NCBI RefSeq assembly: GCF_000382385.1
Contig: NZ_KB908321.1
Coordinates: 1-64,000, forward strand
Source: Segatella maculosa DSM 19339 = JCM 15638
GTDB lineage: Bacteria; Bacteroidota; Bacteroidia; Bacteroidales; Bacteroidaceae
DNA: 64,000 nucleotides
Direction: 5' to 3'
Under the pieces are notes generated by a model that had not been told where the DNA came from, searched no databases, and saw only the letters and a list, made by a program, of their open reading frames with translations. The number at the start of each line of letters is the position of its first letter. Within the stretch, counting starts at the first letter, position 1. Below are positions 404-61,312 of this stretch, piece after piece. Made by a program: the position numbers and the translations under genes.

Positions 404-541
404 ACCCCATTCGCAGAGTGCCGTCCTACCCAGCTGTTGGGCAGCTCCCTACCCAGCGATTATGTCGCCCTGTACCCAGCAGCTGGGTAGCGGAGGATAT
501 ATTCGCTGGGTAGGACGATACCCAGCAGCTGGGTGTAGAAG
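404..541. repeat. Array A: 23-bp palindromic tandem units
   Basis: The motif TACCCAGC starts at 427, 450, 473 and 519, exactly multiples of 23 bp. The slot at 496 keeps only the right half (GCTGGGTA at 505). The best core is TACCCAGCAGCTGGGTA, a near-perfect palindrome around a central base. A degenerate unit may begin at 404. It fills the gap between the lipoprotein stop and the HU-related start of cassette 1. No gene fits here. Confidence 0.85.
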
Positions 542-561
542 TATGCTATGCTGCATATCCA

Positions 562-2277
562 TCATTCGAACGGTTGCGTATATATTCCGATACTGCGGTG
601 ACCGTGGTCCAGTAGAACTTTTGCTTTGCTAAATACCATGTAGAACCCTTCTTTGATGCTAAACGGAGTACTACTTGTAGACCAGTATAGTCCAGCGAAG
701 CCGACGCTAATCAGTGTACCATTATTATAGCTGCCTAATGTGGGCAGGAAAAAATAGTCTGCGAGATTACTGGGGGTGCCGAGAGTTGGAATACTACTGG
801 GATACGGAAAATAAATCTGTCGCAAGTCTCTGGGAGCTTCAATAGCCATGCGTCGGTAGCCCATTTTCAAGTCGTCCCATGTAAGCGTGCTTGGATAGCT
901 TTCATTAGCCTTGAGATAGGCCACAATGGCACTCTTCTTTCTTAACCAAATGCCATTGAAGCTAACGAGATGGCCGTTCTGTGCAAAAACGCTGCCCGTG
1001 ACCCAATGTGGGTCGCCTTTCGCAATATACCAGCACTGCTCGTTGACGTTGGGAATGCCTTGCATCCCACCGAAAGCGTCTGCCTTGGCATCATAAAGGA
1101 CAAGATTGGTAGATGTGCCGGTGCCCCCATGGTCGTAGCCGCGGTCGTTCATGTTTACGTATGAGGCGTCGGGGTCAGGCCAATGTGGGTCAAAAGCGCC
1201 GTTAACCAAAGGCCGATAGCTTTCGTAACCATACCAATAATGATTCTTTGCTCCCCACATGTAGTAGTTCCCATGGGCAACAGAAGCTGGTGTGAGATTG
1301 GCCGTCACGTCATAGATAACGCCCTTGTCGAGGGTGATTCCGGTTCTGACGTCCGTGACGACAGTCTCCAAGTTTGTCGTTGGGTCTTTGATGGTGTATT
1401 CTATCTTGAAGTCGTATTTGTCGGGGCGAACGATGACATAGGTGGAATTGGCCTCCGGATTGGCAGCAGTGGTGAGCGGAAAGTTTGAAATGTCTATATC
1501 AATCACGTTAGATCCTGCGCTCCCTTGGGCACCGGGGCCGACGGTTTCGCCATCAAAGTCGAACAGGTCGACCAAATTGCTTGAAGGGTTGTTATAGCAC
1601 CTTGTAGCAGTCATCTTGATGTGTGTCAGCCGAATATTGGGTGCAAGGGCTGCATTCTCACACCGGGGCAGGAAGCAAAGATAAGCCGGCTTATGCACAA
1701 GCGTAAAGTTGAACTTGTCGGGGTTGCCTGTATTATTTGCTTTACCTGAACCGCAGTCGCCGATGTGACCGGCCCAAGTATAGTCATTGGCTGTAGGGAA
1801 GTCGTAATGTTTGTACAACCCTACCGAAGTGGCACTTTCAGGGGTAGCATAGAAAGCGGAAGAACCGTGCCCTGTGTAGCGTACTTCGCAACCGTCGAGG
1901 TAGTCGGCCTTGCTGCCGGGCAGGGTGAACTCTGCGCTGGTTCCGCCGTCGTGCAGTTCGATGGCCGTACTCTTCTGCCATGTGCCGTTCTTGTCTTTCA
2001 CCCAGATGTAGTCATCGCTCTTCCAATAAGCATCGGCTCCTTGGCCGGGTGTGTGTTTGAGGATTGTGCGCGTCTTCGCGCCTGCCGTCTCTTCCTCACC
2101 GTCTATCGACAGTCGCTTTGCTGAAGCCTTCGGTCCGTTGGCTGCGAAGATGACGCCACCCTTTGGTGCTTCGGTTTCGTTCTCTTTCTTTTTGTCCTGT
2201 GCAACGTCTTCATTGGCACAAGCTGCAAGTAGTGCTGCCACCATGAGCAACATGCTTGCCTGTATTAATCTTTTCAT
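562..2277 (-). CDS. Fimbrillin-family lipoprotein, cassette 1
   Basis: 571 residues. A lipoprotein signal peptide ends in LLAAC with the acylated Cys at residue 20, followed by an acidic, Lys-rich linker (ANEDVAQDKKKEN), so export and outer-membrane lipid anchoring are expected. The N-terminal part has motifs shared with the other two lipoproteins here: a Trp-rich strand (YWKSDDYIWVKD), IGDCG, and FTLVHKPAYL, typical of fimbrillin/Mfa-like proteins that form or decorate fimbriae. The C-terminal part (CWYIAKGDPHW, then IWLRKK, then YFFLPTLG) matches the third cassette but not the second. It lies between a small-peptide gene and an HU-related gene on the same strand. Whether it is polymerised or is a surface adhesin cannot be told from sequence. 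Confidence 0.85.
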   Translation of the reverse strand: MKRLIQASMLLMVAALLAACANEDVAQDKKKENETEAPKGGVIFAANGPKASAKRLSIDGEEETAGAKTRTILKHTPGQGADAYWKSDDYIWVKDKNGTWQKSTAIELHDGGTSAEFTLPGSKADYLDGCEVRYTGHGSSAFYATPESATSVGLYKHYDFPTANDYTWAGHIGDCGSGKANNTGNPDKFNFTLVHKPAYLCFLPRCENAALAPNIRLTHIKMTATRCYNNPSSNLVDLFDFDGETVGPGAQGSAGSNVIDIDISNFPLTTAANPEANSTYVIVRPDKYDFKIEYTIKDPTTNLETVVTDVRTGITLDKGVIYDVTANLTPASVAHGNYYMWGAKNHYWYGYESYRPLVNGAFDPHWPDPDASYVNMNDRGYDHGGTGTSTNLVLYDAKADAFGGMQGIPNVNEQCWYIAKGDPHWVTGSVFAQNGHLVSFNGIWLRKKSAIVAYLKANESYPSTLTWDDLKMGYRRMAIEAPRDLRQIYFPYPSSIPTLGTPSNLADYFFLPTLGSYNNGTLISVGFAGLYWSTSSTPFSIKEGFYMVFSKAKVLLDHGHRSIGIYTQPFE

Positions 2278-2296
2278 TTGTTCTAATTCTTAATAT

Positions 2297-2403
2297 GAAC
2301 CTCCCCCAGCCCCTCCGAAGGAGGGGAGTCCGAGCTTGCGGGTCTCTTCTGAGTTTTTCTCAAGTTAGGTCTCCCTCCCATTGGGAGGGACGGGGTGGGT
2401 GTT
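2297..2403. repeat. G+C-rich REP-like inverted repeats
   Basis: Two dispersed hairpin repeats lie between the small-peptide gene and the lipoprotein of cassette 1. One is CCTCCCCCAGCCCCTCC facing GGAGGGG (2297-2326), the other is CTCCCTCCCATTGGGAGGGA (about 2371-2390). Related copies occur at 2464-2500, 44126-44168, 44310-44412, 53020-53066 and 53153-53425, often followed by a trailing segment close to CCGAGCTTGC. They resemble REP-like elements; no coding function. Confidence 0.7.
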
Positions 2404-2430
2404 GGTTGTTACTTGTTACTTGTTACTCTT

Positions 2431-2682
2431 TTACTCTCCCCACACATTATAGCTTGGGTAATCACTCCCCTCTCCCTTTGGAGAGGGGTTGGGGGTGAGG
2501 CTTTCGGGTGAGGCTTCCTCCCATTCCTCATCACTGCCTCGCTTTGCATTGCCAAAGCTACCACCTTGTCCGATGTGCTGGTGCTGACCACTGACGGCCT
2601 GCAAGAGATTGTCTTCCTGCATCGGATAAACCTTCATCTCGGGCGTTGTGTATGCCCTTTTCTTACTCTCCATTTTCTTCAT
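2431..2682 (-). CDS. Small acidic peptide, cassette 1 (83 aa)
   Basis: The frame opens at the ATG at 2682, preceded by A/T-rich sequence without a Shine-Dalgarno, and could also start at 2673. It reads upstream into the leader, but that part is palindromic repeat. The N-terminus (KKRAYTTPEMKVY) is basic with a Y-x-x-P-x-x-x-V/Y pattern shared by the other two cassette peptides (RVYVPPHIRVV and RYVSPSIEVI), followed by a hydrophobic LLQAV and a Gly/acid-rich tail. No signal peptide or known domain. The C-terminal segment SLTPNPSPKGEG is encoded by a REP-like repeat that has entered the reading frame, so the tail is probably lengthened. It is the first gene of the cassette. Function unknown; a secreted or modified peptide precursor is one possibility, unproven. 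Confidence 0.65.
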   Translation of the reverse strand: MKKMESKKRAYTTPEMKVYPMQEDNLLQAVSGQHQHIGQGGSFGNAKRGSDEEWEEASPESLTPNPSPKGEGSDYPSYNVWGE

Positions 2683-3123
<441 letters not shown>

Positions 3124-3155
3124 CAAAGGTAAGACTATTTTTCTTAACCTCCAAA
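3124..3155 (-). promoter_or_regulatory. Bacteroidetes-type promoter of cassette 1
   Basis: On the minus strand, TTTG (3152-3155) is followed after 20 bp by TACCTTTG (3124-3131), matching the -33/-7 consensus. Cassette 3 has the same arrangement at 56550-56581. It overlaps the space just before the stop of the convergent-side transporter gene at 3176. Confidence 0.7.
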
Positions 3156-3175
3156 CAATTAGGAAAGAAAATGCT

Positions 3176-4870
3176 TCATACCCCACAACAGAACAGCACG
3201 ATGAGCTGGGCCGTAAAGATGCGCAGGAACATGCTCAAAGGGTAGACGGTGGAGTAGCCTACGGACGGTGCTTCGCGCGAGCAGACACTGTTGGCGTAGG
3301 CCAGTGCCGGGGGGTCGGTATATGAACCGGCAATCATACCCATGATGGTGAAGTAGTTGAACTTGTAGCGTAGGCGGGCAATCGTTCCCACAATCAGAAT
3401 GGGAACGATGGTGATGAGGAAGCCGGTATAGACATATTTCAGTCCGTCTCCCTGCACAACGGTTTCCCAGAAGCCTGCACCGGCCTTGATGCCCACCGAT
3501 GCAAGGAAGAGCACGAGTCCTATTTCGCGTAGCATCATGTTGGCCGAGGTTGTGGTATAGGTAACAAGTTTGAAATGATAGCCAAAGCGGCCTATGAATA
3601 TGGCGATAATCAGTGGGCCGCCGGCGATACCGAGTTTCAAGGGAACCGGCATGCCCGGGATAGCGAGTGGAATGCTCCCGAAGAGAATACCGATGATGAT
3701 TCCGATGAAGATGGTACCGATGTTGGGTGCATCGAGACGCTTTATGCTGTTGCCCATGATGTCGGCCACGCGGTTCACATTGTCTTCGGGACCAACTACC
3801 ATGATGCGGTCGCCAATCTGGAAATGGTGATTACGGCCGGCAAAGAGGTCCATGCCTTGGCGGGTGATGCGGGTGACATTGACGCCATAGACACTTGAGA
3901 AGTGCATTTTTCCCAATGTCTTGCCGTTCATGGCAGGGTTGGTCACGACTATTCTGCGGCTGATCAGTGGCTGTATTTCGGCCTCTGTGTGCCATGGTGT
4001 GTCTATTTCCGGGCCGATGAATGCCTTGATGGCTTCGGCGTCGGCTTCGGTACACACAATGAGCACTTCATCGCCAAGGCTAAAGATGGTGTCACGATTG
4101 GGGATAGTCACTTCGCCATCGTGAAGCAGTCGCGAACAGATGACATCACGATTGAGGAATTGGGAAATCTCAAGCAGTGTGCGTCCGGCAATATAGGCAT
4201 TGCTCACTTTCAGATGCATCTGGTGAGGCTTTGCGTGTGGATTTTCATCCTCTTGTTCAGCAAGGTTCTGTTCTTCTTTCTCTAATTTCACACGCGTGAT
4301 ATAGCGGATAGCAATGGTTGCACCGATGATGCCCAGTACGCCAAGCGGATAGGCACAGGCATATCCCGATGCAATCTGAGGCATGCGACTGGGTGTAAAG
4401 ATGCTCGTAAGGGCCTCATTGGCGGCACCAAGTCCGGGTGTATTGGTCACGGCTCCATAGAGCGTGCCAACCATCATTGGGAGGTTGTTGACATTGCTTG
4501 TGTCGAAAAAGACCCAATAGCAAATGAACATCACGGCAATGTTGAGCAAGATAATTGCCGTGGTCAGCAGATTAAGGGTCACGCCACCCTTGCGGAAGCT
4601 CTCGAAGAAGCCCGGTCCTACCTGAAGACCGATGCAGAACACAAAGAGAATAAGTCCGAAGTCCTGTATGAATCCCAAGATATTGATAGGAGCAGTAAAG
4701 CCTATATGACCTGCGAGAATTCCGGCAAAGAGTACGAAGGTGACGCCCAATGAAATACCGCCTACTTTCACTTTGCCCAATAGGACTCCAACAGAGATTA
4801 CAATGGCATAGAGCAATGCAATGTGGGCTATTGAGTCAGTTGTGGTAAAAAGATTAATTAACCAGTCCAT
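3176..4870 (-). CDS. AspT/YidE-type transporter with two TrkA-C domains
   Basis: 564 residues. Hydrophobic helices fill residues 1-190, two soluble regulator domains of the TrkA-C (RCK-C) type follow at about 218-295 and 300-375, and another helical block ends the protein. This is the layout of the AspT / aspartate-alanine exchanger family, to which E. coli YidE and YbjL also belong. The repeated membrane halves with glycine-rich stretches ([16 protein letters not shown] in the first half, [14 protein letters not shown] in the second) are family hallmarks. Substrate unknown; an organic anion or amino acid is likely. Cytoplasmic membrane. Single gene with its own promoter at 4893-4923. Confidence 0.85.
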
Positions 4871-4892
4871 ATTTTTAGTATAAATATGGTTG

Positions 4893-4923
4893 CAAATGTA
4901 CTGAGTTTTTAGTGATTGGCAAA
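4893..4923 (-). promoter_or_regulatory. Promoter of the AspT/YidE-type transporter
   Basis: Minus-strand TTTG (4920-4923), 19 bp, TACATTTG (4893-4900), ending about 22 bp before the ATG at 4870. Between here and 5140 I see no gene or repeat. Confidence 0.7.
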
Positions 4924-5139
4924 ATAAATGCTATCTTATTTTGGTAGTACTGTTTCCATATTGTAAAAAAGAGTACCCTCTTTTGAATATGCTCATAGCG
5001 GTTTCTGCAAGACCATCTTATCCCGAACAGACGTGTGTTTTTTGTTCAACTGAGGCGTTGGAAGGCCGTTTCTCCTATGGCTTATCTCTGACTCCCGTTA
5101 AATTAAGGAGGCAGAAAAGCCAGATTTGTTTCTTTCGAT

Positions 5140-5170: not shown

Positions 5171-5199
5171 CGAAAACTGAACAACGCTTACGTAATAAC

Positions 5200-8965: not shown

Positions 8966-9070
8966 CAATATCAGCCATATCGGCTTGCAATATGGCCCAT
9001 ATTACACGGTAAAATGGCTGATATTAGCGACCAATATGGCTGATATTGCAGGGCAATATAGCCCATGTTG
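8966..9070. repeat. Array B: 22-bp palindromic tandem units
   Basis: Five units start at 8966, 8988, 9010, 9032 and 9054, exactly 22 bp apart. Core variants are AATATGGCTGATATT, AATATGGCCCATATT and related forms, near-palindromic; spacers are about 7 bp. It sits between the divergent porQ and tonB genes, so it lies upstream of both. The core resembles that of array D. Confidence 0.85.
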
Positions 9071-23591: not shown

Positions 23592-23745
23592 GATTTCCAT
23601 CCGTATCTAATTGAATTATCTCCATGGAGATAAATTCTTATCACCGTGGAGATAAATATTTATCACCATGGAGATAAGGTCTTATCACCATGGAGATAAT
23701 CCGACGAGATACGGATGGAAATCGCAGGAGATGCGGATGGAAATA
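23592..23745. repeat. Array C: 22-bp palindromic tandem units inside inverted arms
   Basis: Four units start at 23616, 23638, 23660 and 23682 with core TTATCTCCATGGAGATAA and variants. On the left lies TTTCCATCCGTATCT (23594 onward); on the right AGATACGGATGGAAA (23707) and AGATGCGGATGGAAA (23729), its inverse, again 22 bp apart. It lies between divergent topB and cdd. The rest of 23381-23883 holds only the cdd promoter box. Confidence 0.88.
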
Positions 23746-27151: not shown

Positions 27152-27285
27152 ATAATCATTCATATTGCAGGCTAATCTCAACCATTTTACCTTGCAATCT
27201 CAGCCATTTCGCGCGCTAATATGGCTGAGATTGCGTCGCAATATGGCTGAGATTGTATGCCGAAATAAACCATTTTGTGCGCCAA
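27152..27285. repeat. Array D: 22-bp palindromic tandem units
   Basis: Units start at 27174, 27196, 27218, 27240 and 27262, 22 bp apart, with a weaker one at 27152. Cores are AATCTCAGCCATTT and AATATGGCTGAGATT, partly palindromic; the halves appear in both orientations. It lies between the converging lutC and the thioredoxin-type gene. The core is a near relative of that in array B. Confidence 0.85.
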
Positions 27286-35565: not shown

Positions 35566-35770
35566 CCTCCATTGGGAGTCCTCTCGTACTTCCATTGGAA
35601 GTCCTCTTGCACTTCCAATAGAAGTCCTCTCGTATAGATACTATCTATCCTCTTGTATAGATACTATCTATCCTCTCATATAGATAGTATCTATCCCGTT
35701 CTATACATAGTATCTATCCTCTTGTATAGATAGCATCTATCCTCTTGTATAGATAGTATCTATCCTACTG
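35566..35770. repeat. Array E: nine 23-bp units with a core switch
   Basis: A spacer like CCTCTTG recurs at 35580, 35603, 35626, 35649, 35672, 35695, 35718, 35741 and 35764, exactly 23 bp apart. The first three units have core CTTCCATTGGAAG, the next six TATAGATACTATCTAT and variants; both are palindromes. No gene is seen in 35455-35985; the region also holds the terminator at 35898. Confidence 0.92.
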
Positions 35771-44413: not shown

Positions 44414-44854
44414 TTAATTCCCGTGCTGCCCAATTCCCCCTTCCTCCTTCTTCTTTTCTTTCTTCCGCTTCGGGTTATTCACGCTCACCTCGGCCGTCTT
44501 GGCGGCTTCGCGCATCTTTGCTTTCGGCGTGAATACAATCTTCGGAGTCTTGAGCGAGGCGGCTGTCACGTCGATTTCCTTGTCCACCATCTTCGAGGGG
44601 TAGTAGACGCGCAGGGCACCGAGGTCGCCCAAGTCTACGCTGAAGCCCATCTTCAGCCCGCGGCACACGAGGCGGGCCAGCGTGGTGAGCGCATTCATCA
44701 CGTCGCCATAAGAGAGCGATGTCTCGTCTACGATTTGTTGGCACACGGCGTCGAGCGTCATACGGTTACTGTTCTTGGCCACGGCGTAGTACACCGTCTG
44801 GCCCTTCTTTGCGCCGATTGTCTGTTTCTTCGACTTGATTTCAAATTCGATCAT
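44414..44854 (-). CDS. HU-related DNA-binding protein, cassette 2
   Basis: 146 residues. HU-related domain at about 1-110 (FEIKSKKQTIGAKKGQTVYY, then IVDETSLSYGDVMNALTTL, FSVDLGDLGALRVYYPS), then a Lys-rich tail (NPKRKKEKKKEEG) ending GIGQHGN. The tail and the last seven residues are the same in the third cassette. A DNA-binding role in chromatin structure or regulation of the cassette is inferred. Array F lies just upstream. Confidence 0.85.
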   Translation of the reverse strand: MIEFEIKSKKQTIGAKKGQTVYYAVAKNSNRMTLDAVCQQIVDETSLSYGDVMNALTTLARLVCRGLKMGFSVDLGDLGALRVYYPSKMVDKEIDVTAASLKTPKIVFTPKAKMREAAKTAEVSVNNPKRKKEKKKEEGGIGQHGN

Positions 44855-44902: not shown

Positions 44903-45040
44903 GTGTTAAACACTCATCACTGCAGGTGTTAAACACTCACCATTGTGAGTACGGAACACTCACCGTCATAGGTGTTAAACACTTGCAGTCGTGGGTACGG
45001 AACACTCACCGTCGTAGGTGTTAAACACTTGCAGTCAGTT
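44903..45040. repeat. Array F: 23-bp palindromic tandem units
   Basis: Units start at 44903, 44926, 44949, 44972, 44995 and 45018, exactly 23 bp apart. Core GTGTTAAACAC (palindrome with central A) alternates with GTACGGAACAC. It fills the gap between the lipoprotein and HU-related genes of cassette 2. Confidence 0.88.
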
Positions 45041-45044: not shown

Positions 45045-46700
45045 TTAGAAGTGCACGAAAGGAATTACCGTGAAGTAGGAGAGCCCTGATCCTTTTCCGG
45101 CAAAGTTGTCGGCACCGAGATGCTTGGGATAGTAATTCACGGCATTCAGTGCGTCCGTCTCCGTACTCGTCCATGAGCAGTCGGGGTTATCATGGCTGGA
45201 TAATGCTGGTGCACCAACAGCCGTGAACGTTGCATCGATGACAGACATAGTCGCAGGATCGATAGCTGCAGAGCCGCTCCATTGGGTGTACATGGGCAGG
45301 GTGCTGCCGAAAACGTTCCGCAGTTTCATCACTTCGCCAAAGGCGGGCAGATACCATTTGCGGCCGACCATCGAGCCGGATACGGTGATACCACTTGCGG
45401 CCAAGTGGTCGCCATAGCGTGCGGCTGCATAGAAAGCGGGAAAGTCGAGGCTGTTGGCTTTGATGGTCGTTCCGTCTGCGCTTCCTGCGGCCTCCCAAGT
45501 ATATTTGTAGCCGTCCACGTCGTTGAGGGCATCGGTAGGAGTGGCAAATAGGGCACTGTTGGCTTGCGGGGTGGTAGCTCTCCTGTCCCACATAAATCCA
45601 TTATATCCGGTGACGATGGGATACAGAGAGGTTGGTGCGCAATCCAAGGCCATAGCTGTTCCGTCTTTGGTGGCTGTCTTCTCCTCCACGACAAGACCAA
45701 TGGGGGTACGCCCTGCTCGTTCGGCCAATGTGCCGGTGGTGCCGTCGCTGAAAAGGTAGCGCGCAGGGAACACACCATCTTTGATGTCGGGGGCGAACTT
45801 CTTGTTTGCGCCTGCATGGAAGTCTTTGGAGGTATAGTTGGCCGTCACCGTTCCGGGGAAGTGGGTCACGGTGTTGGTCACGGTATATTCGATAGAGAAC
45901 GTGGTGTAAGTACCCGGGGGCAGCACGAAGGTTGCGGAGTTGTCGGCAGGGGTGGCAGTTGCAGGCAGGGTGAAGCCCGTGCCGTCTGTGCCTTGCAGGT
46001 TCAGCGTAATGCTCTGCGAGGGCCCTGCGGGCGCGGTGGCAATGTCGAGACCGGCATCGCCGAAGTTGAAAGTTCCGGCCAAGGGCTTATCGGCGGTTAT
46101 CTTGATTTTAGAGAGTTTGCCGCCGGCTAACTTGCTGTCCGAAGAGAACGGTGTGAGGGTGAAGTAGGCAGCCTTATGGCGCAGGGTGAAGTCGTAGTGG
46201 TCGCCGTTCTTGGTGGCGGTGGCCGTTCCGCAGTCACCACACTCGCCTATCTGTGTTGCCTCGAGAGGCAGCTTCTGGGTCTGCACAGCGGCGATGGTCA
46301 CCTTATCTTTCGTGCCGTTCTTGCCCGTGTAGCGCAGAATGTAGCTCGGGTCGGTGTAGGTGCCGTGGAAGTAGAACGTGGCCGTGGGCACTTTGGTGAG
46401 GGTTCCACCACCGGCCGCGAGTTGGTCGCCGATGTCTGAATGGTGGCTCTCTATCACGTCAGAGCCGGTGTTGAGCCACAGGTGGTCGTTCTCCGTCCAG
46501 TAGAACTTGACCTTTGAACCGGTATATTCGCCGGCGGTGCGGCTCTTGGCAGACTGCGGTGCGGGTGCCTCATCTATCATGGTAAAGGCCGTGGTGCCTG
46601 CCGTCGGGTTGTCTTTGTCCTGCGCAGCGTCGTCGCTTGCACAACCTGCCGTCGAAAGGAGTGCGGCGAGCAGGAACAGGAATGTCATTGCTTTTTTCAT
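45045..46700 (-). CDS. Fimbrillin-family lipoprotein, cassette 2
   Basis: 551 residues. Lipoprotein signal ending STAGC (Cys20), then an acidic linker (ASDDAAQDKDN). The N-terminal region shares FYWTENDHLWLN, IGECGDCG and FTLRHKAAYFTL with the other two. The C-terminal module differs: RKWYLPAFGEVMKLRNVFG and DCSWTSTETDALN resemble a lectin-like/FISUMP-type domain rather than the module of the other two. So the cassette keeps its N-terminal half but has a swapped end. Outer-membrane surface protein expected. Confidence 0.85.
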   Translation of the reverse strand: MKKAMTFLFLLAALLSTAGCASDDAAQDKDNPTAGTTAFTMIDEAPAPQSAKSRTAGEYTGSKVKFYWTENDHLWLNTGSDVIESHHSDIGDQLAAGGGTLTKVPTATFYFHGTYTDPSYILRYTGKNGTKDKVTIAAVQTQKLPLEATQIGECGDCGTATATKNGDHYDFTLRHKAAYFTLTPFSSDSKLAGGKLSKIKITADKPLAGTFNFGDAGLDIATAPAGPSQSITLNLQGTDGTGFTLPATATPADNSATFVLPPGTYTTFSIEYTVTNTVTHFPGTVTANYTSKDFHAGANKKFAPDIKDGVFPARYLFSDGTTGTLAERAGRTPIGLVVEEKTATKDGTAMALDCAPTSLYPIVTGYNGFMWDRRATTPQANSALFATPTDALNDVDGYKYTWEAAGSADGTTIKANSLDFPAFYAAARYGDHLAASGITVSGSMVGRKWYLPAFGEVMKLRNVFGSTLPMYTQWSGSAAIDPATMSVIDATFTAVGAPALSSHDNPDCSWTSTETDALNAVNYYPKHLGADNFAGKGSGLSYFTVIPFVHF

Positions 46701-46763: not shown

Positions 46764-47009
46764 CTACCAGCCCTCGTCGAGTGCGTCGTGGTGGCCTCCG
46801 AAGCTGGGCGTGTAGTGCTCGAAGTCTTCGTCCAAGGCGTCTTCGTGGCCGCCTGTTCCCGGCGAATACGGCTCGAACTCCTCGTCAAGGGCATCTTCGT
46901 GCCCTCCGGTTGCGTGCGAGCCGAGCAACAGCCGGCAATAGTCTTCCGTCTCGACCACCCGGATATGGGGAGGCACATAGACCCGCTTTTCTGTTTGTTT
47001 TCTGTTCAT
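46764..47009 (-). CDS. Small peptide with 18-residue repeats, cassette 2 (81 aa)
   Basis: 81 residues. Basic N-terminus (MNRKQTEKRVYVPPHIRVV) with the family Y-x-x-P-x-x-x-V pattern, then CRLLLG and a tail of two and a half repeats of 18 residues (GGHEDALDEEFEPYSPGT, GGHEDALDEDFEHYTPSF, GGHHDALDEGW). The repeats are His/acid/aromatic-rich. First gene of the cassette, 63 bp before the lipoprotein. No signal peptide. Function unknown. Confidence 0.75.
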   Translation of the reverse strand: MNRKQTEKRVYVPPHIRVVETEDYCRLLLGSHATGGHEDALDEEFEPYSPGTGGHEDALDEDFEHYTPSFGGHHDALDEGW

Positions 47010-47452
<443 letters not shown>

Positions 47453-49707: not shown

Positions 49708-49838
49708 TTTCATCTATGTGGAACTGTGCATTCCACGTACGTGGAACTGTGTGTTTCATCTACGTGGAATTGTGTGTTCCACGTACGTGGAACCATGTGT
49801 TTCATCTATGTGGGACTGTGTGTTTCACGTATGTAGGG
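49708..49838. repeat. Array G: 23-bp palindromic tandem units
   Basis: Units start at 49708, 49731, 49754, 49777, 49800 and 49823, exactly 23 bp apart. Core TTCCACGTACGTGGAA is a perfect 16-bp palindrome; the alternate units read TTTCATCTACGTGGAA and are imperfect. It lies between the converging thrS and rlmH. Confidence 0.9.
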
Positions 49839-50383: not shown

Positions 50384-50384
50384 G

Positions 50385-53430: not shown

Positions 53431-53880
53431 TTAATTCCCGTGCTGCCCAATTCCCCCTTCTTCTTTTTTCTTTTTCTTCTTTTCTTCCTTCCGCTTCGGG
53501 TTATCCACTTCCACTTCTATTTTCTTCAGCGTGTCGGCGATAGACTGCTTCCAGCGCACCAATATACGGGGACGCTTCAACGAAGTGGCACACACGTCGA
53601 CTTCCTTAGCCTCCATCTTCGAGGGAATCGTAGTACGAATGGAAAAGATGTCGCCGAGGTCGAGCGAACCGCCGAGGGTGACCACCTCCTTGATGATGTT
53701 TTTCAGCGTGATGAGCACGTTGCGCACGTCGCCCTCACTCAATGAGGTTTCACGCACGATGCGCTCCACGAGCCACGTCGACGAGAACTTGTTCGGAGCC
53801 TTGGGTTCTGCACAATAAGCCTTCTGCCCTTTTTTCGGGCCTACGCCGAGCACGCGCTCGACAACTTTAAAGATAATCAT
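53431..53880 (-). CDS. HU-related DNA-binding protein, cassette 3
   Basis: 149 residues. HU-related core (KVVERVLGVGPKKGQKAYC, then IVRETSLSEGDVRNVLITLK, GSLDLGDIFSIRTTIPS), long Lys run in the tail and the end GIGQHGN. Closer to the cassette 1 protein than to that of cassette 2 in the central helix. Last gene of the cassette. Confidence 0.85.
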   Translation of the reverse strand: MIIFKVVERVLGVGPKKGQKAYCAEPKAPNKFSSTWLVERIVRETSLSEGDVRNVLITLKNIIKEVVTLGGSLDLGDIFSIRTTIPSKMEAKEVDVCATSLKRPRILVRWKQSIADTLKKIEVEVDNPKRKEEKKKKKKEEGGIGQHGN

Positions 53881-53959: not shown

Positions 53960-54115
53960 CCTCTCCGTTGAGAGGTCTCTGCCTTCTTACCGAGAAGTCT
54001 TTTGTCTTCCTATTGAGAAGCCTTTTGTGTTCCCATTGGGAAAGGTCTTGTCTTCCTATTGGGAACACCTTGGTCTTCCTATTGGGAAAGATCGAGGCTT
54101 CTCACTGGGGAATAC
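53960..54115. repeat. Array H: 23-bp palindromic tandem units
   Basis: Units start at 53983, 54006, 54029, 54052, 54075 and 54098, exactly 23 bp apart, with a weaker one at 53960. Cores CTTCCTATTGGGAA, GTTCCCATTGGGAA, CTTCTTACCGAGAAG: palindromes whose arms change together. It fills the gap between the lipoprotein and HU-related genes of cassette 3. Confidence 0.88.
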
Positions 54116-54133: not shown

Positions 54134-55552
54134 TCACTCGGCAGTCCACAGATGCATACCATGCCCGTAATATTCGTATTGCACGGACACGCCATCTTTG
54201 GCAAAGTACATGTAATAGTAGATGTCTGAATACCCCGGAACAACAGGTGGACTTGCCCAGTAGTAGCCACGATCAAAATCGAGCAACGTCCACCCGTAGT
54301 TGTAGTAATAACCACAAGCTGGGAGAAAAAAGTAATCGTCGGGGTTGCTTGGCCTGCCCTGGGTGCTGTTGTTAATGATGTTGGTGGGGTTGCTCATAGC
54401 TGTGGTTCGGTAATCGGTGCCGCCATAATTAGAATTGGTAAAGCCTGAGATTTTAGCCTTTTTCTTAAACCACATGCCGCGGACGTACAAATGATCATTC
54501 ATTGTCCAAAGGGTCGTAGCGTCCCAATGGGGGTCGCCTTTCATAGCATACCAACAAGCTTCGTTTACGTTGGGGCAACCGGCAGCAACAGTTTCATCCC
54601 AGAGCCGGGGGTAACCGCCGGAGTATTCTTTAACCTGTAAGTCGGTATGTACCTTTTTGTTCTTACCGGCGGTAAAAGTCATGCTGGGATAGGTCTTGGT
54701 GATGGTGCCGGTGAGACGAGTTTGTTGATCATAGAGCGTATACTCGATACTGACATTGCTGTAAGTACCGGGGTTGACGACCATCGTAGCAGTTTTGGTG
54801 GTAACAGTAGATGTGTTGGGGACAGGGAAGTAGTTGAGGCTTAACTCAATACTGTTGGAAGTGGAGGCGGGGTTGCTGAGCGTACCATCGTCGGCGAAGT
54901 TGAAGGTGCCGGCGAGTGCATCGGAAGCGTGGCCGGTGAACACGCGGATCTTTAGGACGCAAGCATTTTGATTTTGTGCCCATGTTTGTGTTGAATAAGG
55001 TATAAAGGTGACGTAGGAGGCCTTGTGGTCGAGGGTGAAGTTATAACCTGTTCCCGAATAGATAGCTGTTCCTGTTCCGCAGTCGCCGCTCTCACCGATG
55101 TGCGAGGCATCGTTAGGTATGGTCTGTGATTGTTGAGCCTTGATGGTCACCTTGTCGCCCACTGTGCTGCCCTTGCCCGTGTAGCGGACGGGATAGGAGG
55201 GAGCAGTATAGGTACCCGCGAAATAGAACCGTGCCGTTGCTGCCCGTTTTACAGCCCCCGGCACCGTGGGGCTATAGGTGAGCATTGCAGAGATGTTGTT
55301 GCTGTTGTCTTGTATCAACGTTCCGTTGTTCACCCACAGGTGGTCGCCCTCCGTCCAATAGAAGTTCAGGCCCGAGCCGTCGTATTCTGCTGTCGTTCGG
55401 GTTGCGCCACCATCTACCGTAAATGCGGTGAGGCCTTTGGTGTCGGGCTTCTGTGCTTGCTCTTGCTGGCTGTTTGTTTCTTCGCTTGCACAGGCTGCCA
55501 TCAGGAACAATGCGCCTGTAAGTGCGAGCAGGGATAATGCGTTTGTTTTCAT
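54134..55552 (-). CDS. Fimbrillin-family lipoprotein, cassette 3
   Basis: 472 residues from the ATG at 55552 (MKTNALSLLALTGALFLMAAC); an ATG at 55573 would add 7 residues. Lipobox Cys21, Glu/Gln-rich linker, then the shared motifs LNFYWTEGDHLWVN, IGESGDCG and FTLDHKASYVTF. The C-terminal module (CWYAMKGDPHWD, then MWFKKKAKI, YFFLPACGYY) is that of cassette 1. 12 bp follow the small-peptide stop in the longer form. Surface lipoprotein, fimbriae-associated by family. Confidence 0.85.
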   Translation of the reverse strand: MKTNALSLLALTGALFLMAACASEETNSQQEQAQKPDTKGLTAFTVDGGATRTTAEYDGSGLNFYWTEGDHLWVNNGTLIQDNSNNISAMLTYSPTVPGAVKRAATARFYFAGTYTAPSYPVRYTGKGSTVGDKVTIKAQQSQTIPNDASHIGESGDCGTGTAIYSGTGYNFTLDHKASYVTFIPYSTQTWAQNQNACVLKIRVFTGHASDALAGTFNFADDGTLSNPASTSNSIELSLNYFPVPNTSTVTTKTATMVVNPGTYSNVSIEYTLYDQQTRLTGTITKTYPSMTFTAGKNKKVHTDLQVKEYSGGYPRLWDETVAAGCPNVNEACWYAMKGDPHWDATTLWTMNDHLYVRGMWFKKKAKISGFTNSNYGGTDYRTTAMSNPTNIINNSTQGRPSNPDDYFFLPACGYYYNYGWTLLDFDRGYYWASPPVVPGYSDIYYYMYFAKDGVSVQYEYYGHGMHLWTAE

Positions 55553-55585
55553 CTTCTGTTCTTTTTTAGTCATTGAAACGTTTTG

Positions 55586-55807: not shown

Positions 55808-56549
55808 AATCTCTAATTTATAGGGTGAATATTGTTTTGCTTTCCTTGTCTCGTTGCGTGCATGGTGCATGTAGGGACGCACGGCTCGTGCGTCCGCTCC
55901 AATGGCCTGTTAACTGCCAACTCGTCAACCGCGGTGAGCGGACGCACGAACCGTGCGTCCCTACACGCTCTTGCGTCTTTTCGTTTGCTTCCTTTTGCGT
56001 CTTTTTGTTTGCGAATGCATGTAGGGACGCACGGTTCGTGCGTCCGTTCCAATACCCCGTTAACTTCCAACTCGTCAACCGTGGTGAGCGGACGCACGAG
56101 CCGTGCGTCCCTACATGCTCTTGCGTCTTTTCGTTTGCTTCCTTTTGCGTCTTTTTGTTTGCGAATGCATGTAGGGACGCACGGCTCGTGCGTCCGCTCC
56201 AATGACCTGTTAACTGCCAACTCGTCAACCGTGGTGAGTGGACGCACGAGCCGTGCGTCCCTACATTTTGCTTCCTTATTTCGTTCATTTTTTGCTCGTA
56301 AAGGGACACAAATATGCGAACAAAGGGAACTCCGAGAAGCCCTTTATTTATTGGGGTTACGCGCGCTTCGCGCGCGCGTACGTGAAGACGTTTAAACGCC
56401 AGGTGCGCTAAGTGTGTGTGTGTGTGTGTGTGTTAGCAAATTATTTGGATTAACCAAATAATAAGCGTTAAAAGATGCAGAGAAATCAAAGTTTCTTTGC
56501 ATCACCGTACACATCTTATTATCGTTGATTGAAAATATCATCTTGGCGG
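55808..56549 (-). promoter_or_regulatory. Conserved 5' leader of cassette 3 with (CA)11 mini-ORF
   Basis: Same order as leaders 1 and 2 but longer, because three palindromic units replace one. Mini-ORF at 56392-56502 (36 codons, MQRNFDFSASFNAYYL, then Thr-His pairs, ending LSAPGV); 11 CA units at 56412-56433; hairpin around its start codon; an AACAAAGGG hairpin at about 56317-56346. Confidence 0.6.
55871..56264. repeat. Three palindromic units at a 150-bp period
   Basis: Units at 55871-55964, 56021-56114 and 56171-56264. Starts are exactly 150 bp apart; the linkers share a T-rich segment with CTTTTTGTTTGCGAATGCAT. Tandem amplification of unit plus linker is the simplest explanation. Confidence 0.9.
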
Positions 56550-56651: not shown

Positions 56652-56683
56652 ATTGTAGGGTTTCGGGTTATTTGCTACCTTTG
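56652..56683 (+). promoter_or_regulatory. Promoter of the ECF sigma gene
   Basis: ATTG (56652-56655), 20 bp, TACCTTTG (56676-56683). It argues that translation starts downstream of about 56690. Confidence 0.6.
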
Positions 56684-56711
56684 TCAACGAGAAACAAACC
56701 CACCGATACCG

Positions 56712-57326: not shown

Positions 57327-57439
57327 AATACTTATTTTAGGGTATTGCCGCTTTTCCAATCTCTTGCTATTTTTGGGTCGTAAACTTCTACTTGCTTCTC
57401 TCAACTTGTGGAGAAACAGCGAGTCTTAATGAAATGTAT

Positions 57440-59194
57440 ATGATAAAGACGCTCAAACGCATGAGAGCTTACATGGGAGGGCGCAGACTTCTGCTGCCTT
57501 GCTCCATCGGGTTGTCGGCGGTCAACGGACTGCTGTCGCTCGTTCCCTTTGTCTTCTTGTGGCTTGTAGTGCGCACGTTGCTCATGGCAGACGGCAATCT
57601 TTCCGATACACCTTTGTGGAATTATGCCATTGCTGCGTTGGTAGTGTCCGTAGTCAACGTGTTGCTATACTTTGCAGCACTCATGTGCTCGCACCTTGCC
57701 GCCTTCCGTGTTGAAACCAATATGCGACGCAGTGCCATGGAACGCCTGATGCGTATGCCGCTGGGCTACTTTGACACCCGTAACACAGGCCAAATGAGGA
57801 AGGTCATTGATGAAGACTCCGGACAAACGCACACCTTTGTGGCGCACATTCTGCCCGATGTAGCAGGAAGTATCGTCGCTCCTCTCGGTGTCCTTATCCT
57901 CTTGTTTACGGTTGACTGGCAGCTTGGTCTTGCTTCGATGTTGCCGATTGTTAGTGCCTTCGGTATCATGGGGTATATGATGAACCCGAAGAATAACGAT
58001 TTCCAACGAATGTATCTCGACGCACAGGAGAAGATGAGTGCAGAGGCAGTGGAATACGTACGTGGCATTCCCGTGGTGAAAGTCTTTCAACAAACGGTCT
58101 TCTCATTCAAAAGGTTCTACGACAGTATCATCAGCTATCGCGACCTCGTCAGCCGCTATACCCTCCTGTGGCGCATACCCATGTCGGCCTACACCGTTGC
58201 TATCAATGCCTTTGCTTTCTTCCTCGTGCCCACAGGAATTATTCTGATAAGCCACGGCGAGCACCCGGCAATGGTCATAGCCGACCTTTTCCTCTATGTC
58301 GTGATAGCACCTGTTATAGCTGCCAATATAATGAAGGCTATGTATCTCAGTCAGAATCTCTTCTTGGCGAATGAGGCCGTAGACCGTTTGGAGAAACTTA
58401 CCGCTACGCCTCCGCTGCCCGAACCTGCAGTGCCGGCCAAACCTCAAGGGTTTGACATTAGGCTGAACGATGTCTCTTTCCGCTATGAGGGAGCTGCGAA
58501 GGATGCCGTGAGCCATATCAACCTAACTATTCCCGAAGGTAAGACGGTGGCCCTCGTCGGTGCCTCTGGAAGTGGAAAGACCACGATTGCACGACTTATC
58601 CCACGCTTCCGCGACGTGACGGAAGGCAGTGTGACCATCGGCGGAACCGATGTACGCTGTATGGACAAGACCGATTTGATGCGCAGCGTGTCGTTCGTCT
58701 TTCAGAATACGCGCCTCTTCAAGACTTCCCTCTTGGAGAATGTGCGCTATGGAAGTCCGGAAGCGACGCTTGAGGAAGTGAACCGCGCCATAGATCTCTC
58801 GCAAAGTCGTGACATCATCGATCGCTTACCACAAGGACTGGATACCGTCATCGGGGCCGAAGGAACCTATCTGTCGGGTGGCGAACAGCAGCGCATCGCC
58901 CTTGCCCGTGCCATATTGAAAGATGCTCCCGTTGTGGTGCTCGACGAGGCAACCGCCTTTGCCGACCCCGAGAACGAACATCTCATACGCATGGCTCTCG
59001 CTAACCTTACCCAAGGTAAGACTGTCCTCATGATAGCCCACCGACTGACCACCGTAGTAGACGCCGATAACATCGTCGTCGTTGATGGTGGAAGTATTGT
59101 CGAACAGGGCACGCACGAAGAACTGCTGGCTCGAAAAGCCACCTATTATAATATGTGGAACGAATACCAAAGAGCGATAGCGTGGAAACTATAA
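57440..59194 (+). CDS. ABC transporter, permease-ATPase, IrtA/YbtP-like
   Basis: About 584 residues from the ATG at 57440 (MIKTLKRMRAYMGG); ATGs at 57434 and 57392 are alternatives. Six-helix type IV exporter-fold domain, then ATPase: Walker A GASGSGKTT, signature LSGGEQQRIAL, Walker B VVVLDEATAFADPENE. The unusual FADPENE D-loop and GQMRKVIDEDSGQ match the IrtA/YbtP group that imports siderophores with an exporter fold. Pairs with the next gene. Iron-siderophore uptake is plausible but unproven. Confidence 0.85.
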   Translation: MIKTLKRMRAYMGGRRLLLPCSIGLSAVNGLLSLVPFVFLWLVVRTLLMADGNLSDTPLWNYAIAALVVSVVNVLLYFAALMCSHLAAFRVETNMRRSAMERLMRMPLGYFDTRNTGQMRKVIDEDSGQTHTFVAHILPDVAGSIVAPLGVLILLFTVDWQLGLASMLPIVSAFGIMGYMMNPKNNDFQRMYLDAQEKMSAEAVEYVRGIPVVKVFQQTVFSFKRFYDSIISYRDLVSRYTLLWRIPMSAYTVAINAFAFFLVPTGIILISHGEHPAMVIADLFLYVVIAPVIAANIMKAMYLSQNLFLANEAVDRLEKLTATPPLPEPAVPAKPQGFDIRLNDVSFRYEGAAKDAVSHINLTIPEGKTVALVGASGSGKTTIARLIPRFRDVTEGSVTIGGTDVRCMDKTDLMRSVSFVFQNTRLFKTSLLENVRYGSPEATLEEVNRAIDLSQSRDIIDRLPQGLDTVIGAEGTYLSGGEQQRIALARAILKDAPVVVLDEATAFADPENEHLIRMALANLTQGKTVLMIAHRLTTVVDADNIVVVDGGSIVEQGTHEELLARKATYYNMWNEYQRAIAWKL

Positions 59195-59215
59195 CCAACC
59201 ATCAAAGATACAACT

Positions 59216-60940
59216 ATGATCAGATACTTTCAAAACCGTTTCGCTCTTTCTGAGAAAGGAGCGAAGGACCTGCGGAGGGGCATCATCTTCTCCACGTTAC
59301 TCAACCTTGCGTTGATGTTGCCACCCACTTACCTCTTCTTCTTTCTCATGGAATACCTTGACGCCCAGCCCGGCCTGCAACCCCATGCACTGTGGGTTTA
59401 TCTGCTATTAGCCGGCGGTTTGGCCGTCGTGATGTTTGTCGTGGCCCGATGGCAGTATGATAGTACCTATACCACCGTTTATACCGAGAGCGCACGACGC
59501 CGCATCAACATGGCTGAGAAGTTGCGCCGGCTACCGTTGGCCTTCTTCGATGAGCGTAATCTCTCCGACCTCACATCGACTGTAATGGAGGATTGCACAC
59601 AACTTGAACAAACTTTTTCACATGCTGTTCCACAGCTCTTTGCCTCTGTGTTAAGCATGATTGTCATTGCCGTCAGCCTGTTTTGTTACGATTGGAGATT
59701 GGCGACCGCGCTCTTTTGGGTAGTACCGATGGCGCTTGCTATGCTGTTGCTGTCGAAACGCCGACTCAATAAGGTCTTCAATAGCCATTATCTTAAGAAG
59801 CGCGGTGTCACCGAACAGATACAAGAAGGATTGGAATGCGTACAGGAAATCCGTGCTTACGGTGGGGAGCAGGCCTACTGTCAAAGCTTCGACCACAGAC
59901 TGAAAGGCTACGAGTGCGAACTCATTCATGGAGAATTGGTGGCGGGCGTCTGCCTAAATCTCTCGGCCATGCTGTTGAAGTTGGGCCTGCCCACCGTTAT
60001 TCTCTTGGGAGCTTTCCTGTTTCAGCGCGGCGACGTTTCCCTTTTCGTTTACATGGTGTTCCTCCTTGTCTCGGCCATGGTTTACAATCCGGTGCAAGAG
60101 GTGTTCGCTCATTTGGCCATTCTCTCGTTCCTCGACGTGCGCATCAACCGCATGAAGGAAATCGAGGCAATGCCCACACAAGAAGGTAACGAGGAAGCTT
60201 CGATGAAACGATACGACATTGAGTTTCGCAACGTTAGCTTTGCCTATGAAAGCGACAAGCAGGTGTTGCACAACGTCTCTTTTACGGCCCGGCAAGGCGA
60301 GGTGACTGCCCTTGTGGGACCATCGGGCGGTGGAAAGAGCACTGCTGCCAAGCTTGCCGCACGCTTCCGTGATATTGATGCAGGGGAGATACTGCTCGGT
60401 GGTTGCAACATCGCGACCGTCGATCCTGAGGAATTGCTAAAGAACTTCTCTATCGTTTTCCAAGACGTGCTACTTTTCAATGCTTCCATTGCCGATAACA
60501 TTCGCATTGGCCGGCGCGAAGCAACCGACGACGAGGTACGACGCGCAGCACGGTTGGCACAGTGTGACGATTTCATCAGTCGCATGCCGCAAGGCTACGA
60601 CACAGTCATCGGGGAAAACGGAGAGACACTCTCTGGCGGTGAGCGTCAGCGTATCTCCATCGCGCGTGCACTCTTGAAGAATGCACCCATCATCCTTCTT
60701 GACGAGGCCACCGCCGGCCTTGACGCAGAGAACGAAACGAAGATACAGGCCGGTATTTCCGAGCTTGTGCGCGACAAGACCGTCATCGTTATTGCCCACC
60801 GCATGCGTACCGTTCGCAATGCCGACCACATCGTGGTGCTCAAAAATGGTACTGTTGCCGAGCAGGGCACGCCCGATGAACTGATGGCGCAGAAAGGCGA
60901 GTTCGCCCACATGGTGGGGTTGCAACAAGGAAAAGCCTAA
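59216..60940 (+). CDS. ABC transporter, permease-ATPase, IrtB/YbtQ-like
   Basis: 574 residues. Six-helix domain, Walker A GPSGGGKST, signature LSGGERQRISI, Walker B IILLDEATAGLDAENE. Half-transporter partner of the upstream gene (21 bp apart), forming a heterodimer in the inner membrane. No outer-membrane receptor or siderophore synthesis gene lies nearby. Confidence 0.87.
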   Translation: MIRYFQNRFALSEKGAKDLRRGIIFSTLLNLALMLPPTYLFFFLMEYLDAQPGLQPHALWVYLLLAGGLAVVMFVVARWQYDSTYTTVYTESARRRINMAEKLRRLPLAFFDERNLSDLTSTVMEDCTQLEQTFSHAVPQLFASVLSMIVIAVSLFCYDWRLATALFWVVPMALAMLLLSKRRLNKVFNSHYLKKRGVTEQIQEGLECVQEIRAYGGEQAYCQSFDHRLKGYECELIHGELVAGVCLNLSAMLLKLGLPTVILLGAFLFQRGDVSLFVYMVFLLVSAMVYNPVQEVFAHLAILSFLDVRINRMKEIEAMPTQEGNEEASMKRYDIEFRNVSFAYESDKQVLHNVSFTARQGEVTALVGPSGGGKSTAAKLAARFRDIDAGEILLGGCNIATVDPEELLKNFSIVFQDVLLFNASIADNIRIGRREATDDEVRRAARLAQCDDFISRMPQGYDTVIGENGETLSGGERQRISIARALLKNAPIILLDEATAGLDAENETKIQAGISELVRDKTVIVIAHRMRTVRNADHIVVLKNGTVAEQGTPDELMAQKGEFAHMVGLQQGKA

Positions 60941-60990
60941 CACCCATCCCAGCCCCCCGTTGTCGTGACGGGAGCGGCAGGAACCTTGAA

Positions 60991-61044
60991 GAGGTGACGG
61001 AACGAAGCAAAAGTTGTTTCCGCAGGTCCGTCACCTCTTTTTTT
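60991..61044 (+). terminator. Terminator of the ABC transporter operon
   Basis: GAGGTGACGGA and TCCGTCACCTC arms, followed by seven T. 50 bp after the stop. Confidence 0.9.
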
Positions 61045-61066
61045 CGGGGGGGGTATCGATACATTT

Positions 61067-61312
61067 CTTAACGTTTAACTGTCAGAGTGCGGCACTCCTA
61101 TACTTTTCTTAACGTTTAGCGGTTAGAGTACGGTACTCCTATACTTTTCTTAACGTTTGACTGTCAGAGTACGGTACTCCTATACTTTTCTTAACGTTTT
61201 ACTGTCAGAGTGCGGCACTCCTATACTTTTCTTAACGTTTTACTGTCAGAGTGTGACACTCCTATACTTTTCTTACCGTTTAATTGTCAGCGTGCGGCAC
61301 TCCTATGCATCT
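61067..61312. repeat. Array I: six 41-bp units with covarying palindromes
   Basis: The segment CTTAACGTTT starts at 61067, 61108, 61149, 61190, 61231 and 61272 (last as CTTACCGTTT), exactly 41 bp apart. Each unit carries a palindrome: GAGTGCGGCACTC, GAGTACGGTACTC (twice), GAGTGCGGCACTC, GAGTGTGACACTC and a form starting GCGTGC. Between the ABC terminator and pheS; no gene. Confidence 0.95.

Follow-up and report, generated by a model that had tools for sequence, protein, structure and literature searches.

Palindromic 22/23-bp arrays of Segatella maculosa adjoin HU-HIG genes and are candidate binding platforms for their products

Intergenic DNA of Segatella maculosa carries tandem palindromic arrays of 22- or 23-bp period, and we find that 21 of the 24 HU-HIG genes in this genome (G000) whose upstream DNA was in view have such an array in the 300 bp preceding them. 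These arrays are probably binding platforms of the HU-HIG paralogs, each protein reading the core just upstream of its own gene, with one dimer per unit and autoregulation as the outcome; this reading is built on sequence comparison. Because an array stands in front of nearly every HU-HIG gene and the palindromes recur elsewhere, each protein probably has a private set of recognition sites.

Nine arrays in a 64-kb window

The window, the whole stretch of DNA from which the analysis started, comprises positions 1 to 64,000 of contig NZ_KB908321.1 and contains nine arrays, none assigned to a strand. Their periods are those given in the initial annotation: 23 bp in A, E, F, G and H, 22 bp in B, C and D, and 41 bp in I. 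Array A (404-541; core TACCCAGC-N-GCTGGGTA) lies between a lipoprotein gene (562-2277, minus strand) and an HU-HIG gene downstream of it (6-341, minus strand) that is truncated by the contig end. Array F (44903-45040; core GTGTT-A-AACAC) is upstream of an HU-HIG gene at 44414-44854 (minus strand; 146 aa; PF18291, E=1.3e-20), and array H (53960-54115; core CTTCCYATTGGGAAG) is upstream of another at 53431-53880 (minus strand; 149 aa). Other arrays recall HU-linked arrays at a distance: the core of array C (23592-23745; TTATCACCATGGTGATAA) is that of the array upstream of the HU-HIG gene G000:C9:19901, and array E (35566-35770) is an in-register mosaic of a CTTCCATTGGAAG block followed by a TAGATAGTATCTA block, the second core of which matches the array of the HU-HIG gene G000:C23:25020. 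Array B (8966-9070) has the core CAATATGGCTGATATTG, and array D (27152-27285) is degenerate. Array G (49708-49838; core TTCCACGTACGTGGAA) occupies the convergent gap between thrS and rlmH, and comparison of its core with those of HU-linked arrays found no HU partner. By eye, it lies beyond a separate terminator-like hairpin that follows thrS, which argues against arrays serving as terminators. Array I (61067-61312) joins the GC palindrome AGTGC-G-GCACT to an AT-rich linker.

HU-HIG genes and the arrays upstream of them

The array-linked proteins are members of the HU-HIG family (PF18291) above its curated cut-off, with 74.2 and 45.0 bits against a Pfam gathering score of 26.2. An HU/IHF fold is predicted: the structure model has a pLDDT of 85 and its leading Foldseek matches are HU/IHF-type proteins, all of them weak (best E 3.2e-3, none at or below 0.001), and a search of PDB sequences gave E=0.16 at best.

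Among the 21 linked loci, which include A, F and H, 20 were found by the array detector and A by an offset scan. Three loci have more than one upstream array, the best-scoring of which alone gave the label, and a period of 44 or 46 was entered as 22 or 23. With the same detector on four contigs, where genes were called with our own codon model, an array lies within 300 bp upstream of 10 of 12 HU-HIG genes and of 27 of 427 other genes (Fisher p=3e-10). Three HU-HIG genes of the genome lack an upstream array, and two of these have a downstream one. Outside this genome, 22/23 arrays accompany 15 of 34 same-genus HU-HIG loci (34 examined of 73 matches, six genomes) and 13 of 40 loci in seven further HU-HIG-rich genomes; no 22/23 array was found within 300 bp of the other 19 and 27, respectively, and some loci of this kind have periods of 21, 39, 40, 43 or 45. 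Across nine genomes, the number of HU-family matches correlates with array density (Spearman 0.86).

Period follows protein clade in most cases

In a tree of 60 proteins, for which the label of array A was set by hand, the 15 linked 23-bp arrays all belong to a single clade of 17 members, whose two remaining rows are contig ends. When other families were included (51 proteins with arrays), that clade took in 16 of the 18 HU-linked 23-bp arrays (five genomes), and the period label changes 3 times on the enlarged tree, against a shuffled mean of 16.8. Protein similarity also tracks core similarity within a period class (36 arrays, r=0.397, 0 of 2000 permutations). The two covary between species as well: cross-genome protein pairs with at least 50% identity have the same period in 39 of 39 cases, and at 60-90% identity only 8 of 20 pairs share at least 14 of 15 core letters. 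Common descent of gene and array may account for part of this cross-genome core sharing. Close relatives in one genome (G205) show a mixture of 22 and 23, and two S. maculosa genes labelled 22 also have a weaker 23-period stretch, so the clade does not fix the period absolutely.

The initial annotation had proposed a fixed period with exchangeable palindromic cores, the period being set by something outside the core sequence. For 22 and 23 bp this is supported, in that the HU-HIG clade beside an array predicts its period in most cases, and the HU-HIG proteins are a strong candidate for what sets it.

Cores form families that disperse beyond HU-HIG genes

Cores come in families, not one per locus, and the earlier idea that each array has a private core gives way to this. 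B and D share a core type (by eye), as do the first block of E and array H (CTTCC..GGAAG), and the core of A is seen again at C6:404, C9:113354, C27:7882 and C3:234354. The commonest core, that of B, defines a large dispersed family that recurs in at least 40 places in the genome (40 of 183 candidates scored), and no HU-HIG gene lies within 5 kb of any of the 40. Core type can also switch within one array while the register is kept, as in E and at C3:70097-70522. The motif ATTCGC, considered as a common array edge, is present in A and a few 22-bp arrays and is not general.

Among 31 dispersed 22/23 arrays (a set that leaves out A and D), 20 resemble the core of an HU-linked array more closely than column-shuffled controls do, 19 of them beating all 40, and the period is equal in all 20 matched pairs; the other 11 have no match among the cores of HU-linked arrays. 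Seven of the 31 lie in divergent gaps, which is no excess and speaks against a promoter role, and 10 lie in convergent gaps, an excess that is not significant (p=0.15). That arrays are not simply terminators or operators therefore holds for the dispersed arrays and for G, but 21 of 24 HU-HIG genes do have an array in operator position.

The dispersal and block structure of the arrays also bear on whether they could be non-autonomous mobile DNA, MITE- or minisatellite-like, that spreads or expands by itself and is carried rather than read by HU-HIG genes, a reading that we consider unlikely. A-type arrays have been copied as sharp-edged blocks with unrelated flanks, the identity between copies on contigs C3 and C6 runs as far as the array and gives way to unrelated sequence past it, some 41-bp arrays share flanks, and the 23- and 41-nt repeats of Porphyromonas gingivalis reside in MITE-like elements (PMC4596501). 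Nevertheless, k-mer and flank comparisons gave no end common to all arrays, and mobility alone leaves unaccounted for the upstream positions at HU-HIG genes, the period by HU clade and the tracking of protein similarity by core similarity. Some loci do share flanks, and several of the strongest shared flanks contain the HU genes. In REP/RAYT systems, too, a protein gene adjoins a palindromic repeat of which further copies are scattered through the genome, but the proteins considered here are of HU type and are not known to have catalytic activity. Searches for the Y1 transposase (PF01797) gave 0 matches in this genome, which is 99.88% complete; this argues against a REP/RAYT system and against the mobile-DNA reading.

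A genome-wide period rule

Offsets of 12-70 were scanned for self-match over the 362-kb contig, and at a cut of 0.60 this gave 52 periodic regions, against 1 in one Markov-1 shuffle. At 0.65, a cut under which the degenerate arrays A and D fall (best self-match 0.62), 628 kb contained 71 regions, with arrays nearly all intergenic; 63 of the 71 have a period of 22 (25 regions), 23 (17), 41 (16) or 42 (5). No region was detected in any of ten Markov-2 randomisations of the intergenic DNA. The initial annotation had called for a genome-wide scan with a shuffled control, and both bear out the dominance of these periods. Its assertion that the period does not drift is upheld for 22 and 23 bp and fails for the 41 class, which ranges over 40, 41 and 42. 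The units are contiguous and tandem, without the unique spacers that separate the repeats of a CRISPR.

A rule of this kind might arise neutrally, if slippage during replication and fold-back synthesis lengthened tandem palindromes and the replication machinery dictated their period. Some arrays (C3:135671) do have near-identical units, which suggest whole-unit expansion, but we judge this origin quite improbable: two periods coexist and are sorted by HU protein clade, the arrays keep almost entirely to intergenic DNA, and 100 kb sampled of a relative (G016) contained 0 arrays.

Stem symmetry and mismatches

Tested against 100 column shuffles, 43 of the 63 arrays are palindromic at p<=0.05 and the other 20 fall short of this level. 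Pairing runs up to a 1-nt centre in twelve odd-axis 23-bp arrays (80% at the innermost pair), and centres are unpaired in 5 of 17 23-bp arrays (even axis) and 8 of 25 22-bp arrays (odd axis). On the contig plus strand, stem mismatches in all 43 palindromic arrays number 94 GT and 56 AC, an excess at odds with a pure DNA dyad, which does not predict it; in 19 tandem-gap arrays of known transcription direction, the sense-strand counts are GT 32 and AC 28. A TAnnTTTG box stands at the array start in 6 of 6 members of the 200-aa HU clade and would place those arrays in the 5' leader; it is confined to that clade and is therefore no general array start. The plus-strand excess, the loop-like centres of some palindromic units and the box would all suit units that act as transcript hairpins (attenuators, terminators or stability elements), but this is the least probable reading of all, given the near-even sense-strand counts, the pairing to a 1-nt centre, the dispersed arrays in convergent gaps and the lack of any Rfam match at gathering score within the window.

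Lipoprotein modules with (AC)n tracts

All 11 lipoprotein genes that adjoin 22/23 arrays in 628 kb have a perfect upstream (AC)n tract, from (AC)8 to (AC)31, and all 11 dinucleotide tracts in this DNA are (AC)n, each upstream of one of these genes. Three modules are in the window, with their genes and tracts on the minus strand. In module A, the fimbrillin-like lipoprotein beside array A, which belongs to a family of 11 in 628 kb, is accompanied by a small ORF (2431-2682) whose family is found in 6 of 11 modules, and an (AC)20 tract lies upstream (2959-2998). Module F has a fimbrillin-like lipoprotein of 551 aa (45045-46700), a small ORF (46764-47009) and an upstream (AC)16 tract (47304-47335), and module H has one of 479 aa (54134-55573) and an upstream (AC)11 tract (56412-56433). 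The order tract, lipoprotein, array, HU-HIG gene is kept in 9 of the 11 modules; of the two exceptions, one is without an HU gene and the other has its array after the HU gene. Contigs C1 and C2 carry four HU-HIG genes and five tracts, and each of these genes has one tract 2.6-2.8 kb upstream of it, which accounts for 4 of the 5.

A perfect (AC)n tract is a hallmark of phase variation, and in phase-variable surface cassettes and phasevarions a perfect tract of dinucleotides precedes the gene for a surface protein. A perfect short tandem tract near a gene, as expected of a phase-variable locus, is present in 11 of 11 modules. The trans factor of phasevarions is a DNA methyltransferase, whereas an HU-type protein, encoded in the same module, would fill that role here.

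The 41/42 class

Neighbour comparison found no HU gene linked to the 41/42 class and no neighbour family common to the loci of the array I family. One family comprises seven genes for ATPases of ABC type or similar, five of which are within two genes of a 39-41-bp array. As a possible partner of the 41 class, PF14848 was set aside: three genes matched, two of them over the cut-off, and none has a 41-bp array.

Discussion

If the 22/23 arrays are platforms for HU-HIG proteins, one symmetric dimer would sit on each palindromic unit, and packing between neighbouring dimers, slightly dependent on clade, would set the pitch at 22 or 23 bp. The core would drift together with its HU-HIG reader, and the array upstream of the gene would confer autoregulation. 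Dispersed arrays of the same core, those in promoterless gaps included, may be further sites of the same protein, serving chromosome architecture or a regulon, and mosaic arrays may serve several paralogs of one pitch. Slippage in the (AC)n tract would switch the lipoprotein and, through read-through, its HU protein.

Parts of this arrangement have parallels. Iteron and operator arrays, such as 22-bp iterons and those of autoregulated repressors, likewise consist of tandem sites, spaced by about two turns of DNA, upstream of the gene for the binder. What sets the present case apart is the number of paralogs, about two dozen, whose cores differ, along with the two pitches and the dispersed copies in non-promoter gaps. 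In unit size the arrays here are of BrickBuilt type, being tandem repeats of 22, 23 or 41 nt. PF00216 is an HU family. One of the 19 published 23-nt BrickBuilt arrays of P. gingivalis, BrickBuilt_14, is listed beside a PF00216 DNA-binding gene (PMC4596501), so the Porphyromonas precedent of the initial annotation is closer than first thought. Like the arrays here, the BrickBuilt, 464/PgRS and 22-nt repeats of P. gingivalis, a member of the same bacterial order, are intergenic and tandem, with units of 23, 41 and 22 nt. There, the 23-nt and the 41-nt repeats each form one sequence family, in MITE-like elements with leader and tail (PMC4596501), whereas here each period has many palindromic cores, a good number of which are linked to an HU-HIG paralog.

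Among the literature matches listed, none gives cognate DNA sites of HU-HIG, and the titles and abstracts hold no description of HU-HIG-linked arrays or of Prevotella palindromic arrays. An HU-HIG expansion in Bacteroidetes was reportedly described by Burroughs et al. in 2017.

A larger scheme is possible, though we would not bet on it: about two dozen nucleoid proteins would form a private lock-and-key code, in which each HU-HIG paralog would polymerise on its own palindrome at the pitch of its clade, be switched by an (AC)n tract together with a surface antigen and, when on, coat all dispersed arrays of the same core. Each antigen state would then have its own chromosome architecture, an HU-based counterpart of the phasevarion across Bacteroidales.

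The platform reading matters in several ways. First, it gives a testable account of the period, which intergenic repeats of Prevotella, and perhaps also the long-known 22/23-nt repeats of Porphyromonas, hold constant although their sequences are unrelated. Second, it supplies the HU-HIG expansion with candidate DNA sites, one per protein. Third, HU proteins are usually regarded as weakly specific, and a set of some two dozen paralogs, differing in their palindromes, would amount to a natural code by which the HU fold reads DNA sequence. Finally, through the link to (AC)n-tract cassettes of surface lipoproteins, antigen switching would be coupled to a DNA-binding protein that has many sites on the chromosome.

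Results

All nine arrays of the window were recovered with the periods reported in the initial annotation: 23 bp for A, E, F, G and H, 22 bp for B, C and D, and 41 bp for I. Scanning offsets along the 362-kb contig that holds the window returned 52 periodic regions at 0.60 self-match versus one in a single shuffle. In a 628-kb sample (contigs C3, C9 and C6 and a 20-kb portion of C27; roughly 19% of the genome), periods of 22 (25 regions), 23 (17), 41 (16) and 42 bp (5) account for 63 of 71 regions at 0.65 self-match; the other eight include one of 40 bp, one of 39 bp and two coinciding with dinucleotide tracts. The shuffle check suggested earlier gave no periodic regions in ten sets of intergenic DNA randomised by a Markov-2 model, versus the 71 real ones, and arrays occupy 13,406 of 151,258 intergenic bases (8.9%). 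Period 22 also leads in 80 Prevotellaceae thrS loci (23 of 54 regions).

At p ≤ 0.05, 43 of the 63 arrays are more palindromic than a column-shuffle null. Each 22/23-class unit consists of a palindrome, its arms about 6-8 bp long, and a short spacer; the 41/42-class unit is a GC-rich palindrome typically followed by an AT-rich linker. Core sequences group into families, and two or three successive cores can share one array with the register kept (for example, C3:70097-70522). On average, 75-80% of units pair at the innermost position in 12 of 17 23-bp and 17 of 25 22-bp arrays; the remaining five and eight have a mostly unpaired, loop-like centre. Stem mismatches read on the sense strand of 19 tandem-gap arrays show no G-T bias (GT 32 versus 28), and all 43 palindromic arrays, read on the contig plus strand, hold 94 GT versus 56 AC.

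Flank comparison revealed genes of about 150 aa common to arrays F, H and others. Pfam assigns these genes to the HU-HIG family (PF18291, HU/IHF superfamily), and array A likewise has one; an AlphaFold model of the window's HU-HIG protein (pLDDT 85) has weak matches to HU/IHF structures (best E = 3.2e-3). The genome holds 29 family matches: 24 genes of HU-HIG length whose upstream DNA is available, two cut by contig ends and three shorter matches, one of which (91 aa) is without an array and two of which could not be framed. A single detector places a 22/23-bp array within 300 bp upstream of 20 of the 24, and array A, from the offset scan, brings this to 21. By the same detector on the same four contigs, such arrays precede 10 of 12 HU-HIG genes versus 27 of 427 other genes (Fisher p = 3e-10). 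Outside the 21, two genes encoding identical proteins (C3:203866 and C1:92256) have a 22-bp array downstream instead, and C17:15376 has none.

Period and core both track the protein. A tree built from 60 HU-HIG proteins of seven genomes groups every one of the 15 proteins with 23-bp arrays, which come from three species, into a single 17-member clade; the remaining two members lie at contig ends. With other families included, 51 proteins with 21-, 22- or 23-bp arrays require three label changes versus a shuffled mean of 16.8. The main clade holds 16 of the 18 with 23-bp arrays, and two proteins of genome G205 with 23 bp adjoin a close relative with 22; pitch thus follows clade yet can move by one base. 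Both partners have the same period in each of the 39 cross-genome pairs with at least 50% protein identity, and in 8 of 20 such pairs at 60-90% identity no fewer than 14 of the 15 core letters agree (for example, H and a G138 relative, F and a G134 gene, and C6:118226 and two G138 genes). Within period classes, core similarity tracks protein similarity (r = 0.397, 0 of 2000 permutations), and part of this covariation may reflect common descent of gene and array. Among 31 dispersed 22/23 arrays, 20 resemble an HU-linked array more closely than column shuffles do, with equal period in all 20; for example, array C matches that of the HU gene at C9:19901, array E that of C23:25020, and four arrays match array H, which is linked to its own HU gene.

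As a separate observation, the same KKEEGGIGQHGN tail ends seven of nine aligned 23-bp-clade paralogs (for example, at 44414-44470 and 53431-53490), whose bodies differ by up to half, as if recombination had homogenised these 3' ends.

Across the array from the HU-HIG gene is the gene for a protein of 480-560 aa whose start looks lipoprotein-like by eye. It forms one family of 11 members in 628 kb, six of them preceded by a small ORF of one family. Three members tested gave no Pfam match over cut-off; because PF13149 occurs in 12 distant ones among the 92 homologs found with one member, and one of the 12 is named a fimbrillin family protein, fimbrillin-like is a weak label. Perfect dinucleotide tracts, the usual substrate of phase variation, number 11 of at least eight units in 628 kb; all are (AC)n, 471-953 bp upstream of the 11 lipoprotein genes. 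The window's only three (2959-2998, 47304-47335 and 56412-56433) lie in the sense of modules A, F and H, respectively, a module being tract, lipoprotein gene, array and HU-HIG gene. Module C3:79869 has array and tract without the HU gene, and in C3:202093 the array follows it. Among the matches listed in a genome-wide pattern search are five tracts on C1 and C2; four of these precede the four HU-HIG genes of the two contigs by 2.6-2.8 kb and share their direction. A 200-aa HU-HIG clade has three genes in this genome, each with an array adjoining a promoter-like box; the two on sampled contigs have no lipoprotein cassette beside them.

Contigs C3 and C6 (C3:1-541 and C6:1-534) are identical before the array, 91% alike within it and unrelated past it, and their lipoproteins are 52% alike; this array is a possible site of recombination, although each contig ends at this point. 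A palindromic repeat built around GCATGTAGGGACGCACGG..CCGTGCGTCCCTACATGC is dispersed over several places (55866-56266, about 47040-47160 and C6 near 10600) and stands in tandem with 150-bp spacing at 55866; it seems to form a MITE-like family of its own.

Beyond this genome, a 22/23 array lies within 300 bp upstream in 15 of 34 same-genus loci, a subset of 73 matches in six genomes. In seven further genomes picked for HU-HIG matches the count is 13 of 40; six of these genomes, five of them from other families, have arrays. A few upstream arrays have periods of 21, 39, 40, 43 or 45; the 39-bp array upstream of the HU-HIG gene G133:C1:1214021 (units CCTTCCCGCC..GGCGG) is a possible further pitch class. 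Most of 119 genomes drawn from the order have only one to three HU-HIG matches, and array density correlates with the number of HU-family matches (Spearman 0.86) across nine genomes whose mutual relatedness makes the p-value generous.

Discussion

The initial annotation proposed a fixed period with interchangeable cores. This rule is explained only in part, because no partner gene was found for the B/D core family, which occurs in at least 40 places, array G in the convergent thrS/rlmH gap, several other 22-bp arrays or the whole 41/42 class. Three 41-bp arrays (C3:266040, C3:287171 and C6:95570) have a 41-48-bp flank in common (CCGACGCCGTAGAACCATCGGG..); the 41 class may thus be part of some larger dispersed element. 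Of the seven members of one protein family, five also lie within two genes of a 39-41-bp array (57434-59194 and 59216-60940, ABC transporters of the window, and C3:138696, C3:253149 and C27:15790), which may be chance.

We take PF00216 to be the HU family. In Porphyromonas gingivalis, the table of PMC4596501 places BrickBuilt_14 between a membrane protein and a PF00216 DNA-binding protein; that paper describes BrickBuilt as 19 elements with 23-nt repeats and cites 41-, 23- and 22-nt repeats in strain W83.

The best explanation of the 22/23 arrays, and a probable one, is HU-HIG dimers seated on their palindromic units. Dimers of the HU fold, such as HU and IHF, have two-fold symmetry and span about 20 bp of DNA. 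One HU-HIG dimer would occupy each palindromic unit, with dimers packed side by side; this packing would set the pitch, and cores would drift along with the protein. We infer that HU-HIG proteins bind these arrays and regulate their own genes, that the modules switch, and that the dispersed arrays have a role in this system.
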